From Microlunatus kandeliicorticis (lineage in GTDB: Bacteria > Actinomycetota > Actinomycetes > Propionibacteriales > Propionibacteriaceae): a DNA stretch of 64,000 bases. Positions 60,154 to 64,000 of this stretch are shown piece after piece. The notes under the pieces were generated by a model. The model was not told the origin of the DNA. It worked only from the letters and a program-made list of their open reading frames with translations, and did no database searches. A program made the translations under genes and the position numbers. The stretch is taken from contig NZ_JACGWT010000001.1 of NCBI RefSeq assembly GCF_014137855.1, forward strand, positions 186,001 to 250,000. The letters are read 5' to 3'. Within the stretch, counting starts at the first letter, position 1. Every line of letters begins with the position of its first letter.

Positions 60154-61095
60154 TCAGCCGGCGAGCCGCAGGTCGGTCAGCTGGTCGCGCTCGGCCTCGA
60201 CCGCCGGACGCAGGGTGCGCGGCCGCGAGGACGCCCGCGAGGCGTAGGTGATCTGGGCCAGCACCCGCTCCTGCGTGGTGGCGAAGCCACCCTTGTGGAT
60301 CCCCCGGGTGTCGGCGAAGACCACGGTGCCGAGGTCGCCGCGACCGACGGTGATCCGGTCGGCGCCGAAGTGCGCGGCCACGTCGTCGTCGCTCAGCCGG
60401 TAACCGATCCCGTCGAACTCGGCCGGCAGCTTCTGCTTGCGTCCGGCGCGGGTGTTGCTGCCGGTCACGTAGGACAGCGGGCCGGCGCCGTCGGGGACGT
60501 CGGAGAGGTAGACGAAGCACTTGACGATGTCGTGGTCCTCCGGCAGGTCGCGGTGCCAGCGCTGCGACTGCGTCGGGCCGCCGTCGACCGGGGTGTTGAC
60601 CCAGATGTTGACGTCCTGGATCTGCAGCTCCATCCCGCTGTAGGCCTCGGCGATGCCGCGGACCTGGCTGTGCCGGGCGAAGCGGAGCAGCGCGTCCGAG
60701 GGCCGGACCGCGGGGCGGTCGCCGAGCAGCTCGGTGAGGAACGGCTTGGCCGGGTCGCGGGGCAGATCGGGCCGGGCCCGCAGCTCGGCGGTCTCGGCCC
60801 GCAGGTCCTCGAACAGCGCGCTGTCCCCGAGCAGGTCGATCACGTTGGTGATCGCGATCCCGTCGTGGGCCAGCGTGCGGTGCACCCGTGCCGCCTCCGG
60901 CGTGAGCACGGCGGGGCGCCGGTTGTAGCGACGGACCGGACCGGCGTTGAACAGGTAGCGGGCCACGTGCCGCTGGCTGCGGACCGCCCGCAGGCCCACC
61001 CGGGCGCCGCGTCGGGCCGTGCCCACCGCCTGCTCGAGCCGGCCGGGCGTGGACACGGCGGGGCTCCCGCCGTTCGTGCTGTGCGTGGTGGTCAT
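60154..61095 (-). CDS. Phytanoyl-CoA dioxygenase (PhyH) family protein
   Basis: A 313-residue Fe(II)/2-oxoglutarate-dependent dioxygenase-like protein. The iron-binding H-x-D is in QRWHRDLPEDHDIVKCFVYL, and the distal His and a 2-oxoglutarate-binding Arg/Lys are in VVFADTRGIHKGGFAT. The loop SDVPDGAGPLSYVTGS is typical. The N-terminal 60 residues are variable. ATG at 61095 is chosen because AGGGGGA lies about 4 nt upstream. It precedes the SDR gene on the same strand, suggesting a two-step oxidation of an unknown small molecule. The region 61096-61310 holds a GTTTC/GAAAC inverted repeat close to the start and otherwise nothing clear. Confidence 0.85.
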   Translation of the reverse strand: MTTTHSTNGGSPAVSTPGRLEQAVGTARRGARVGLRAVRSQRHVARYLFNAGPVRRYNRRPAVLTPEAARVHRTLAHDGIAITNVIDLLGDSALFEDLRAETAELRARPDLPRDPAKPFLTELLGDRPAVRPSDALLRFARHSQVRGIAEAYSGMELQIQDVNIWVNTPVDGGPTQSQRWHRDLPEDHDIVKCFVYLSDVPDGAGPLSYVTGSNTRAGRKQKLPAEFDGIGYRLSDDDVAAHFGADRITVGRGDLGTVVFADTRGIHKGGFATTQERVLAQITYASRASSRPRTLRPAVEAERDQLTDLRLAG

Positions 61096-61382: not shown

Positions 61383-62315
61383 TCAGGCGCGCCGGTAGTG
61401 GGCCACCCAGTCGATCGAGATGGCCGCGGACTTCGGGGTCTTCTTCGACAGGCACTGCCCGGTGGAGACCCGGCAGTCCTTGACCCCGGCCTGGATGCCG
61501 AGCCACATCGGCACCTTGGGGGAGTTCTTGGTCTTGACGGTGGCCCAGACCTTGCCGTCGATCGTGTACTGGATCTTGTTGGTGGACAGGATCACGCCGT
61601 AGGTGTGCCACTTGGTCATGTCGACGTCGTGCCGGAACCGCTGAATCTGCTTGTGGTTCTTGGCGGTGCCGTAGTGGACGGTCGACATGATCCGCGGGCC
61701 GCCCATGACGCCCTCGGCGAAGTCGACCTCGGGCGGCCAGGCGCCGCCCTTGGGGTAGAGCAGGAAGACGTAGCCGACGCCGTAGGCCCGGTCGAACTTG
61801 GCCTTGACCTGCCACATGCCCTGCTTGGCGGCGAAGCCGCGGCCCGAGGACATCCCGGCCGAGGTCCACTTGCCGTTGCTGTAGCGGGTGCGCATCTGCA
61901 GGATGCCGTTGTTCGCCTTGAGCGGCGACGGGGTGACGGTCGCGTTGTCGAGCATGTAGGTGCTCTTGGTGCCCTGCGGGATGCCGCCCATGTAGCGGCC
62001 CCAGACGTTGGTGTTGAGCGGGCCGTTGAAGTTCTCGACGAAGTCGGCCTTCCAGCCCTTCTGCGTGCGGGGCGCACTGGGCATCCAGGTGCCGGCCTCG
62101 GTGAACAGCTTGGCGGTCGCGGCGCGGGCCTTGGCCTGCGCGGCCCGGTCCGCGGCGGTGGACGCGGCGGCGGCGCTCGAGCTGGTGGTGGTCGGGGTGA
62201 CGCTGGCCTCGGCGGGAGCGGTGGCGAAGCCGGCGTAGGCGGCGGTCGGGAGGGCGGCGGCCAGAGCGAGGCCGGTGAGCCGACGGGCGGCGCGGGCGGA
62301 AGTCGCGTTGATCAT
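61383..62315 (-). CDS. Secreted GH16-like glycoside hydrolase, paralogue A
   Basis: A 310-residue exported protein. The signal peptide ends near residue 37 (TAPAEA). After an A/S/T-rich, partly helical linker (38-75) a jelly-roll domain starts (GWKADFVENFNGPLNTNVWG). The GH16 catalytic box E-x-D-x-x-E is present: PPEVDFAEG with E196, D198 and E201. Further family blocks are MSSGRGFAAKQGMWQVKAKF and WHTYGVIL. Two cysteines near the C-terminus (KDCRVSTGQCL) may pair. It should hydrolyse or bind an extracellular beta-glucan-type polysaccharide; the exact linkage is unknown. Paralogue B lies directly upstream with the same 5' leader. Confidence 0.87.
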   Translation of the reverse strand: MINATSARAARRLTGLALAAALPTAAYAGFATAPAEASVTPTTTSSSAAAASTAADRAAQAKARAATAKLFTEAGTWMPSAPRTQKGWKADFVENFNGPLNTNVWGRYMGGIPQGTKSTYMLDNATVTPSPLKANNGILQMRTRYSNGKWTSAGMSSGRGFAAKQGMWQVKAKFDRAYGVGYVFLLYPKGGAWPPEVDFAEGVMGGPRIMSTVHYGTAKNHKQIQRFRHDVDMTKWHTYGVILSTNKIQYTIDGKVWATVKTKNSPKVPMWLGIQAGVKDCRVSTGQCLSKKTPKSAAISIDWVAHYRRA

Positions 62316-62352
62316 GGCGGGGGGCTCCACGGAATCGGGGTGGTGTGCAGGA

Positions 62353-62398
62353 AGGTGGTCTTCGCCCCCGCGAATCGATGTCGCTCCCCTGAGCTGAC
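62353..62398 (-). ncRNA. Conserved structured 5' leader element, copy A (candidate cis-regulatory RNA)
   Basis: Read on the minus strand, GUCAGCUC/GAGCGAC forms hairpin 1 (bulged A, G-rich loop) and UUCGC-GGGG-GCGAA forms hairpin 2, followed by GACCACCU; it ends 37 nt before the ATG. The same 45-nt element, at 36 nt from the ATG, precedes paralogue B, while the flanking leader differs. The whole 350-nt gap 62316-62665 holds this leader, an upstream inverted repeat, a terminator for paralogue B and a tandem repeat. Confidence 0.65.
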
Positions 62399-62443
62399 AC
62401 CGGAAATCCTCGCAGCGGCTCCGGCGGGGGCCAAGGGCGCGGT

Positions 62444-62470
62444 GTGCACGGCGATCGGCATTCCGTGCAC
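62444..62470. promoter_or_regulatory. Shared 27-bp inverted repeat upstream of GH16-like gene A
   Basis: GTGCAC ends both sides of a 27-bp element with inner TCGGCA; the matching element at 63764-63790 follows the pattern GTGCAC-n2-CG-n-TCGGCA-n-TC-n-GTGCAC. It lies 46 nt upstream of the leader element, a plausible activator or repressor site. Confidence 0.6.
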
Positions 62471-62511
62471 AGCTCAGAGGGCTCCCGCCGCCGGGGGTCC
62501 CGGCGGACGAC

Positions 62512-62553
62512 GGAGCCCGCGCCGCCGGCAGCTGGGCCGGTGGCGCGGGCTCC
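62512..62553 (-). terminator. Hairpin downstream of the second GH16-like gene
   Basis: GGAGCCCGCGCC (62512-62523) pairs perfectly with GGCGCGGGCTCC (62542-62553); the loop folds further as CCGGC/GCCGG. It is 113 nt after the stop codon at 62666, beyond the tandem repeat. Confidence 0.55.
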
Positions 62554-62593
62554 GGGTCGGGCTCGCTGGGTGTGCGTTCGGTTGTGGGGTTCT

Positions 62594-62639
62594 GTTGTGG
62601 GATGCGGTTGTGGGATGCGGTTGTGGGATGCGGTTGTGG
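62594..62639. repeat. 13-bp tandem repeat GTTGTGGGATGCG, three and a half units
   Basis: Units start at 62594, 62607 and 62620, with a partial unit at 62633; GTTGTGGGG also occurs at 62581. The repeat is noncoding and sits between the stop of paralogue B and its terminator hairpin. Confidence 0.9.
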
Positions 62640-62665
62640 CAGCGCGGTGGTGCAGGTGACCGGGG

Positions 62666-63637
62666 TCAGGACTGCTTGTAGTGGGCGATCCAGTCGATCG
62701 AGATGGCCGAGTCCTTGGGGGTGTCGGGGGAGAGGCACTCGCCGGTGGTGATGGCGCAGTCCTTGACGCCGGACTGGACGCCGAGCCACATCGGCACCTT
62801 CGGGACGTGCGGGGTGGTGACGGTGGCCCAGGTGCGGCCGTCGATCGTGTACTCGATGGTGTTGTCGCCGAGGATGACGCCGTAGGTGTGCCACTTGGTC
62901 ATGTCGACGTTGTGCAGCCAGCGCTGGATCTGGTAGTTCTTCGGGTCGTAGTGGACGGTGGCCATGATCGACTTGCCGCCGGCGGTGCCCTCGGCAAAGT
63001 CGACCTCGGGCGGCCAGGCGCCACCCTTGGGGTAGAGCAGGAACGCGTAGCCGACGCCGTAGGCGCGGTCGAACTTGGCCTTGACGACCCACTTGCCGCC
63101 GGTGGCGGCGAAGCCGCGGCCCGAGGACATCCCGGCCGAGGTCCAGCGGCCGTTCTCGTACTTGGTGTGCAGCTGGAGGATGCCGCTGCCCGGGGCGCTG
63201 GGCGAGGGGGTGACGGTGGCGTTGTCGAGCATGTAGGTGGCGTGGCTGCCGTGCGGGGCGCCACCCATGTAGCGGCCCCAGGTCTTGACGTCGAGCGGGG
63301 CGTCGAAGTTGTCGACGAAGTCGGCGGTCCAGCCGCCGGTGCTCTTCGGCGCCTTGGGCATGTAGGACCCGGCGCTGGTGAACATCGCGGCGGTGCGGGC
63401 GGCCTGGGCGGCCTGGGCGGACTGGGCGCTCGAGCTGTTGGTGGTCGGGCCGGTGGCGGTCGGGCTGGTGCTGCCGCCGGCCGGGGCGTCGGCGCGGGCG
63501 GTGCCCGGGGTGAGGGTGCCGACGAGGGCCACCGGGATCAGGGTGGCGGCGGCGAGGCCGGCCAGCTTGCGGAGCCGGAACCGACGCTTCGGGTCGACGG
63601 CGGTGGGCGAGCTGGTGGTGGGGATCGAGGCGATCAT
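62666..63637 (-). CDS. Secreted GH16-like glycoside hydrolase, paralogue B
   Basis: A 323-residue exported paralogue of the protein encoded at 61383-62315. Signal peptide RLRKLAGLAAATLIPVALVG ends near residue 49 (TARA). The linker is S/T/Q/A-rich (50-85). The catalytic box is PPEVDFAEG with E211, D213 and E216, and long blocks (MSSGRGFAATGGKWVVKAKF, RAYGVGYAFLLYPKGGAWPP) are nearly the same as in paralogue A, while signal peptide and linker differ. Cysteines KDCAITTGECL are kept. The ATG at 63637 has GGAG 8 nt upstream. Confidence 0.87.
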   Translation of the reverse strand: MIASIPTTSSPTAVDPKRRFRLRKLAGLAAATLIPVALVGTLTPGTARADAPAGGSTSPTATGPTTNSSSAQSAQAAQAARTAAMFTSAGSYMPKAPKSTGGWTADFVDNFDAPLDVKTWGRYMGGAPHGSHATYMLDNATVTPSPSAPGSGILQLHTKYENGRWTSAGMSSGRGFAATGGKWVVKAKFDRAYGVGYAFLLYPKGGAWPPEVDFAEGTAGGKSIMATVHYDPKNYQIQRWLHNVDMTKWHTYGVILGDNTIEYTIDGRTWATVTTPHVPKVPMWLGVQSGVKDCAITTGECLSPDTPKDSAISIDWIAHYKQS

Positions 63638-63673
63638 GGGGGACTCCAGGCGAGAGACGTGCGGTCGGATGAG

Positions 63674-63718
63674 AGGTGGTCTTCGCCCCCGCGAATCTGG
63701 TCGCTCCCCAGAGCTGAC
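63674..63718 (-). ncRNA. Conserved structured 5' leader element, copy B
   Basis: Same two-hairpin element as at 62353-62398; the spacer between hairpins (CAG versus AUCG) and one loop base differ, while both stems are unchanged. It lies 36 nt before the ATG of paralogue B. Confidence 0.65.
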
Positions 63719-63763
63719 GAGAAGAACTCTGCCAGCGCACCGGAGTCCGCGCGATGGCCTCAG

Positions 63764-63790
63764 GTGCACACCGCTCGGCAATCTGTGCAC
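63764..63790. promoter_or_regulatory. Shared 27-bp inverted repeat upstream of GH16-like gene B
   Basis: GTGCAC half sites flank CCGCTCGGCAATC; same element and almost the same distance (about 46 nt) from the leader as in the copy at 62444-62470. Confidence 0.6.
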
Positions 63791-63865
63791 TCCCTGAGCC
63801 GGCCGGTCCCACGCCCGGAACGACGACGGCCCCGGCGCCGGGGCCGGGTCGGAGATGATCATGAC

Positions 63866-63882
63866 GGGCGGCGCGGCCGCCC
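63866..63882 (-). terminator. Short hairpin after the gene at the right edge
   Basis: GGGCGGC-GCG-GCCGCCC is a perfect 7-bp stem with a 3-nt loop, flanked on both sides by TGATCATGACG direct repeats; it is 6 nt after the stop codon at 63888. Confidence 0.5.
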
Positions 63883-63887
63883 GGTGA

Positions 63888-64000
63888 TCATGACGCGGGC
63901 GTGATGTTCTCGATCAGGAACATGTTGTCGTTGTAGTCGTAGTTGATCCCGTTGAGGTCCTCGGTGAAGAGGTAGCTGCCGGGGATCACGTTGCCGTCGG
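63888..64000 (-). CDS. C-terminal end of an unidentified protein, rest outside window
   Basis: The last 36 codons of a minus-strand gene are seen, ending DYNDNMFLIENITPAS before TGA at 63888-63890. The stretch SYLFTEDLNGINYDYNDNMF resembles the closing segment of exported actinobacterial proteins with beta-sandwich domains, but the fragment is too short to name a family. Confidence 0.55.
   Translation of the reverse strand, partial: DGNVIPGSYLFTEDLNGINYDYNDNMFLIENITPAS

Follow-up and report, generated by a model that had tools for sequence, protein, structure and literature searches.

A GTGCAC operator predicted to connect exported GH16 enzymes and seven sRNA-like genes with C-rich loops in Microlunatus kandeliicorticis

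Results

Two GH16 genes with an identical leader block

The window, that is the whole analysed stretch of 64,000 nucleotides, contains near its right end two minus-strand genes, gh16A and gh16B, 350 nt apart. Both products match PF00722 (Pfam, cut-off 22; gh16A: E 6.4e-8, 32.7 bits; gh16B: E 2.3e-11, 43.9 bits), and so does that of a third paralogue on contig 2 (36.5 bits), which is 62% identical to gh16A. All three translations contain EVDFAE, which we take to be the catalytic ExDxxE-type motif of GH16. The features of the two genes are, all on the minus strand:

61383..62315, gh16B, exported GH16 protein, 310 aa (open reading frame and Pfam match)
62353..62376, 24-nt conserved block GATTCGCGGGGGCGAAGACCACCT of gh16B (sequence identity)
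62354-62370, candidate sRNA site CGGGGGC...CCACC in the gh16B block (complementarity)
62380..62398, hairpin-1 sequence of gh16B
62406..62411, -10-like hexamer GAGGAT of gh16B, 32 bp past the operator (putative)
62444..62470, gh16B operator GTGCAC-N15-GTGCAC, a dyad of a genome-wide family
62666..63637, gh16A, exported GH16 protein, 323 aa (open reading frame and Pfam match)
63674..63697, 24-nt conserved block GATTCGCGGGGGCGAAGACCACCT of gh16A (sequence identity)
63675-63691, candidate sRNA site CGGGGGC...CCACC in the gh16A block (complementarity)
63700..63718, hairpin-1 sequence of gh16A; transcription is predicted to begin at 63718 or immediately beside it
63726..63731, -10-like hexamer CAGAGT of gh16A, 32 bp past the operator (putative)
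63764..63790, gh16A operator GTGCAC-N15-GTGCAC, a dyad of the same family

A GC-rich inverted repeat 3' of gh16A (62506-62558), to which microRNA models matched spuriously, is probably the terminator of this gene, and a tandem GGTTGTGGGATGC-type repeat (62580-62640) lies between gh16A and the gh16B operator.

Both leaders follow the same order: 27-bp dyad, 45 nt, hairpin-1 sequence, 24-nt block, 36 nt (gh16A) or 37 nt (gh16B) and ATG. An earlier reading of the sequence alone had noted the same element before both genes with diverged surroundings, and this is borne out: the block is identical at 24/24 positions and the dyad at 22/27, the spacer with the -10 region at 21/38 and the stretch 3' of the block at 13/26. 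The GTGCAC...GTGCAC element that had been placed about 46 nt farther upstream is likewise present in both leaders, at a distance of 45 nt. The third paralogue has the same block and two GTGCAC dyads upstream. In the three paralogue pairs the block is identical throughout (24/24), and identity amounts to 0.70-0.81 in the dyad, 0.55-0.58 in the spacer with the -10 region, 0.45-0.66 in the hairpin-1 stretch, 0.50 after the block and 0.72-0.75 in the ribosome-site stretch. The same aligner returns 0.44 for random GC-rich 38-mers.

When up to three mismatches were allowed, the 22-mer TTCGCGGGGGCGAAGACCACCT was found three times in the 4.3-Mb genome, each time exactly and before a GH16 paralogue, and its reversed control not at all. 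The fourth GH16 gene of the genome (44% identical) lacks the leader block. In a search of 57 genomes for relatives of the GH16 genes, six genomes gave a total of 11 matches. Three of these matches (gh16A, gh16B and the third copy) follow the block; neither a block-like stretch (up to 7 mismatches) nor CGGGGGC...CCACC occurs in the 1.5 kb upstream of the other eight. An additional GH16 search covered 20 genomes of the genus. The 18-mer TTCGCGGGGGCGAAGACC with up to two mismatches has matches in 44 of the 57 genomes, far above the reversed control; exact copies number three in the source genome and one in a relative (G047). The G047 copy sits in unrelated sequence without a following CCACCT, and the leader, as judged by these exact copies, was rejected as a widespread element. 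An extension of the block beyond the duplicated GH16 genes, on which its earlier interpretation as an undescribed cis-regulatory RNA or protein-binding leader depended, was not found, the block being confined to three GH16 paralogues of one genome.

The sequence-only reading had further proposed that the leader is under selection for its RNA structure, which folding does not support. The z values of the 45-46-nt elements relative to shuffles were -0.08 (gh16A), -0.99 (gh16B) and +0.43 (third copy). The two-hairpin fold is not that of minimum energy in gh16A, although it is in gh16B and, with hairpin 1 shifted, in the third copy; hairpin 2 had a probability of 0.0 in all three leaders folded together with the first 45 coding nucleotides. 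Blocking of the G-run in silico raised the predicted opening of the start region from 0.32 to 0.40 (gh16B), from 0.58 to 0.60 (gh16A) and from 0.43 to 0.53 (third copy); since these changes are slight, cis-inhibition by the leader appears to be weak. A comparison with Rfam, advised in the sequence-only reading, yielded no match in the window to any family, the ydaO c-di-AMP riboswitch included, and, below threshold in 62280-63900, five matches at E 1.4-3.2, none of which lies over the leaders. A riboswitch reading of the leaders, which has no Rfam support and folding no better than that of shuffles, was discarded.

The GTGCAC dyad in the genome

The pattern TGCACN{14,18}GTGCAC returned 15 + 21 rows in the genome and 5 + 5 when reversed, with palindromic sites entering the count once per strand; the operators of the third GH16 gene and of sec2, one of two further exported-protein genes, were found with it. 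For GTGCACGGAWTGCCGANC with up to three mismatches, 59 genome sites compare with 10 for the reversed pattern, and the ten sites with at most one mismatch precede gh16A, gh16B, sec1 and seven sRNA-like genes. Twelve of the 59 sites, those with up to two mismatches, were read, and from the 47 with three mismatches sec2 only. Altogether 17 sites were read and 13 aligned, namely those of three GH16 genes, two other exported proteins, the seven sRNA-like genes and one ATPase-like open reading frame. The operator consensus, drawn by eye, is STGCACGGAWTGCCGANC...TSTGCAS with a length of 27-28 bp. According to the alignment table, NANNNT is present 31-33 bp past the operator at 13/13 aligned sites and TANNNT at 9/13, the background of the latter being 0.0002 per position in the window.

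Operator and -10-like hexamer precede 12 units: the three GH16 genes, the two genes for other exported proteins (sec1 matches PG_binding_1, sec2 DUF5648 and DUF1565), one of which has a weaker operator, and the seven sRNA-like genes. The latter are homologous and therefore not independent witnesses for the spacing of the -10 hexamer; sec1 and sec2 are such witnesses for the arrangement. As judged from these sites, assignment of the GTGCAC dyad as a genome-wide operator is well supported. The leader is probably transcribed, because the predicted start falls at hairpin 1. The operator centre would then lie about 56-59 bp upstream of the start, a position typical of activators. An operator-like GTGCAC dyad is also found directly 5' of an open reading frame (L057, G000 C1:466306) that looked AAA-ATPase-like when read by eye and may be leaderless.

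Seven sRNA-like genes

The GTGCAC element is also located before seven sRNA-like genes with predicted loops complementary to the leader block, a fact overlooked in the sequence-only reading. Each of these operators is followed by a stretch of 212-337 nt (about 210-340) with 8-11% T. The genes, recognised by operator and motif, are:

C2:429.3-429.7 kb, sRNA-like gene
C2:491.1-491.4 kb, sRNA-like gene
C3:498.8-499.1 kb, sRNA-like gene
C3:518.7-519.1 kb, sRNA-like gene
C3:521.7-522.1 kb, sRNA-like gene
C4:157.6-157.9 kb, sRNA-like gene
C6:148.2-148.7 kb, sRNA-like gene

Two of them reside 3 kb apart in the same orientation (C3:518.7-522.1 kb), which suggests a local duplication.

Each gene contains two to three copies of a C-rich motif, which in minimum-energy folds forms a hairpin with the loop GCCCCCGA, and ends with GGACCGG...CCGGTCC; the predicted sRNA core is GGUGGCCCCCG. 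All 17 exact genomic copies of GGYGGCCCCCGACRCC fall within the seven loci. In an alignment of 18 C-loop copies, from which one of 19 occurrences of GCCCCCGA (L086, without a stem) was left out, 80.2% of cells in the stem pair compared with 74.2 in shuffles, 3 of 500 of which are as high, and its covariation was reached by 8 of 500 shuffles. Doubly changed pairs and cells are unexceptional (matched by 443 and 59 of 500 shuffles) and more numerous in one slid register than in the stem itself. Pairing in the 3' hairpin amounts to 90.7%, with 9/20 pairs changed on both sides, and its covariation was reached by none of 500 shuffles and no slid register. Tests of this kind are biased towards a positive outcome, because the structure was derived from the very alignment on which it was tested and the copies are paralogues. 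Folding of three of the seven complete RNAs gave z values of -3.19, -1.77 and -1.28. The ten nucleotides 3' of the hairpin contain three to five T, and four T in a row occur only in L079, which renders intrinsic termination uncertain.

A protein-coding repeat was considered and rejected, as the spacing of the C-loops breaks the frame in five of the seven genes. A codon-biased open reading frame is absent from six loci, and in L086 a called one starts inside. The rejection does not depend on a lack of open frames, because frames of 0-553 codons cross the sRNA loci. Long open frames of this sort are frequent in GC-rich DNA.

With operator and -10 hexamer aligned at seven loci and GCCCCCGA loops repeated within them, the genes have the layout of multicopy regulatory sRNAs with C-rich loops, and they are predicted to be siblings that are apparently non-coding. 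No Rfam match was found for the sRNA-like loci. The 6C model (RF01066) had no match at E <= 1 in the eight loci comprising the seven sRNA-like genes and sec1, and none at E <= 0.001 in the genome, where 150 of 2984 candidates were scored; the sensitivity of this search is limited, the control having matched in 1/14 genomes and above the cut-off in 0/14. On the strength of these sequence features, we consider the operator and the seven RNA genes very probably real.

Complementarity between the putative sRNAs and the GH16 leaders

The leader block, read as CGGGGGC-GAAGA-CCACC, complements the loop and the 5' arm of the stem of the sRNA motif, with 5-6 nt in between. In the window, CGGGGG-N0-12-CCACC occurs twice on both strands taken together, exactly in the two gh16 leaders. 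In the genome, CGGGGGC-N0-12-CCACCT has 12 occurrences versus 16 for the reversed control and is hence not enriched, and the pattern was picked after the match had been seen. Three of the 12 sites belong to the operator-preceded GH16 leaders; the remaining nine are located within open frames of 304-810 codons, and TGCAC is absent from the 150 nt upstream of each.

Duplex prediction with the CAGGUGG form of the motif placed the best site of all three leaders at the block (-22.8 kcal/mol). This energy is nothing unusual. With one form of the motif, 97, 115 and 213 of 1000 shuffles of the leaders pair as well, and with the other form 186, 196 and 444 do; among 126 upstream regions called mechanically in the window, 35 equal the GH16 leaders. 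For the sec1 leader no good pairing was predicted (668 and 723 of 1000 shuffles as low). The position of the candidate site, 36-37 nt from the ATG and off the ribosome site, counts against pairing. What speaks for it is the identity of the block, the order of its parts and the operator held in common, rather than energy, and we put the likelihood that the predicted sRNAs pair with the GH16 leaders at a little under an even chance.

Distribution

In the other relatives, 17 copies of GGYGGCCCCCGACRCC were detected in 14 of 56 genomes, at most two in each, all of them in open frames of 94-1005 codons. A model of the 3' hairpin applied with stricter filters to 198 genomes of the family found seven besides its own, with one weak match each; none has GCCCCCGA in the 450 nt upstream (six loci read). 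A search for tandem C-loops gave 11 matches in the own genome and single matches in 4 others of 391 (order) and 6 others of 394 (class), three genomes being common to both sets; the seven matches in other genomes lie in open frames of 202-891 codons. No relatives of the sRNA family were seen among these 198, 391 and 394 genomes. The operator family returned 17 stretches of scattered taxa from the GTDB r220 contigs, judged by their titles to be chance matches; this set may omit the source genome and very near ones. Since the single matches elsewhere lack C-loops or reside in coding-like frames, the putative circuit is so far one of a single species, and nearer relatives may be missing from the collections. 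A description of the sRNA family was not found among the matches listed for open PMC text.

Discussion

With moderate confidence we regard a regulon in which the C-loop sRNAs pair with the GH16 leaders as the best explanation. A single regulator, with its site centred about 56-59 bp 5' of the start, would switch all 12 units together. First contact would be made between the sRNA loop CCCCCG and CGGGGG in the leader, and in a second step GGUGG, from the 5' arm of the stem, would pair with CCACC while 5-6 leader nucleotides are bulged. Such pairing would set translation of the GH16 genes or stability of their mRNAs, so that the polysaccharide enzymes would come under a feed-forward loop. The examples of LhrC, sX13 and B11 make repression more likely than activation. 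A bolder version, which we put forward tentatively, is a lineage-specific circuit in which an envelope or polysaccharide regulator would fire both the GH16 enzymes and the seven C-loop sRNAs, whose 18 near-identical hairpins would kiss the G-run and invade via the stem arm; enzyme output would then follow the ratio of sRNA to mRNA arising from matching promoters. Because pairing of this G-run near the start codon is predicted as well, the sRNAs might in this version even activate by competing with the cis contact.

It is possible, with lower probability, that only the regulator is shared, that other mRNAs are the targets of the sRNAs, perhaps through G-rich ribosome sites, and that the block serves another purpose, for instance as a translation enhancer or 5' stabiliser. 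The unexceptional pairing energies of the leaders and the poor pairing of the sec1 leader agree with this, as does the report that G-rich motifs near starts can enhance translation in Xanthomonas (PMC3771888). It leaves unexplained, however, why complements of both loop and stem arm stand in the right order in an invariant block. Less probable still is that the block acts as DNA, its palindrome TTCGC-N4-GCGAA downstream of the start binding a second protein as repressor or roadblock: the palindromic arms are perfect, the block is base-identical in three paralogues and folding of the longer RNA does not favour the hairpin, but the 22-mer has only three genome copies at up to three mismatches and the conserved CCACCT lies outside the palindrome. 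A free-standing cis-regulatory RNA, riboswitch-like or protein-binding, is very improbable. In its favour, each of the three leaders allows a 5' hairpin to be drawn where transcription is predicted to start, the third differing in sequence; against it, Rfam matches and excess folding are lacking, hairpin 2 is unformed in the longer fold and the block is confined to the GH16 paralogue group. Of the proposal made in the sequence-only reading, we retain the idea that the genes for exported polysaccharide enzymes have a regulatory leader of an undescribed kind, and give up that of a free-standing RNA class, as the block was found nowhere but in front of three GH16 paralogues in a single genome.

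The preferred reading, a regulon with sRNAs pairing to GH16 leaders, has parallels in known systems. LhrC1-5 of Listeria need one two-component system, LisRK, which answers envelope stress, and each RNA carries three redundant C-rich sites that make contact by the loop before the 5' side of the stem is engaged (PMC4132741). Several homologous sRNAs under one regulator, repeated C-rich sites, the proposed contact in which the stem joins the duplex after the loop, and a wall-associated target protein are points of likeness. In contrast to the genes studied here, LhrC has five copies in a low-GC Firmicute and uses a UCCC motif that is CU-rich and directed at the ribosome site (PMC4132741). The likeness is one of anatomy, and kinship in sequence is not claimed. 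The streptococcal csRNAs of the CiaRH regulon were found as regulator promoters plus terminators in intergenic regions and, similarly, constitute several sRNA genes recognisable by the regulator promoter; they measure 51-202 nt and are present in all streptococci examined (PMC3091779), as opposed to 212-337 nt and one species in our case. 6C RNA and mycobacterial B11, the C-rich terminator loop of which is the seed (PMC12395582), are likewise actinobacterial sRNAs with C-rich loops, but 6C is a model of 75 positions, usually a single gene and widespread (RF01066; PMC9569102, PMC12395582). sX13 of Xanthomonas combines stable stems with three apical C-rich loops directed against G-rich mRNA motifs, the same pairing of partners as proposed here; it belongs to another phylum, and the sections available describe a single sRNA and mention no operator common with its targets (PMC3771888). 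By anatomy, the present system would work like LhrC, csRNAs, sX13 and B11, and it appears to be a member of no described family tested.

Multicopy sRNAs with C-rich loops tied to an envelope regulator are already known from Listeria and streptococci. If true, the circuit would be new in a GC-rich actinobacterium and would consist of a seven-gene, multi-loop family sharing one operator with exported GH16 enzymes; given that none was seen in the other genomes searched, it would have arisen recently. Three candidate target leaders are ready for a direct test.

The gene neighbourhood offers some further observations. Minus-strand open reading frames upstream of gh16A, past the end of the window (L005, G000 C1:245000-262000), look by eye like an exopolysaccharide cluster with similarities to glycosyltransferases, a flippase and a polymerase, and a further GH16-like C-terminus was noticed by eye at L005 12336-14366. 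The same region encodes, in tandem, two secreted proteins for which weak Ig-like matches (HYDIN/DUF1573) were obtained. Within the window, the minus-strand gene at 60154-61095 has a sub-threshold PhyH match (20.5 bits, cut-off 22).
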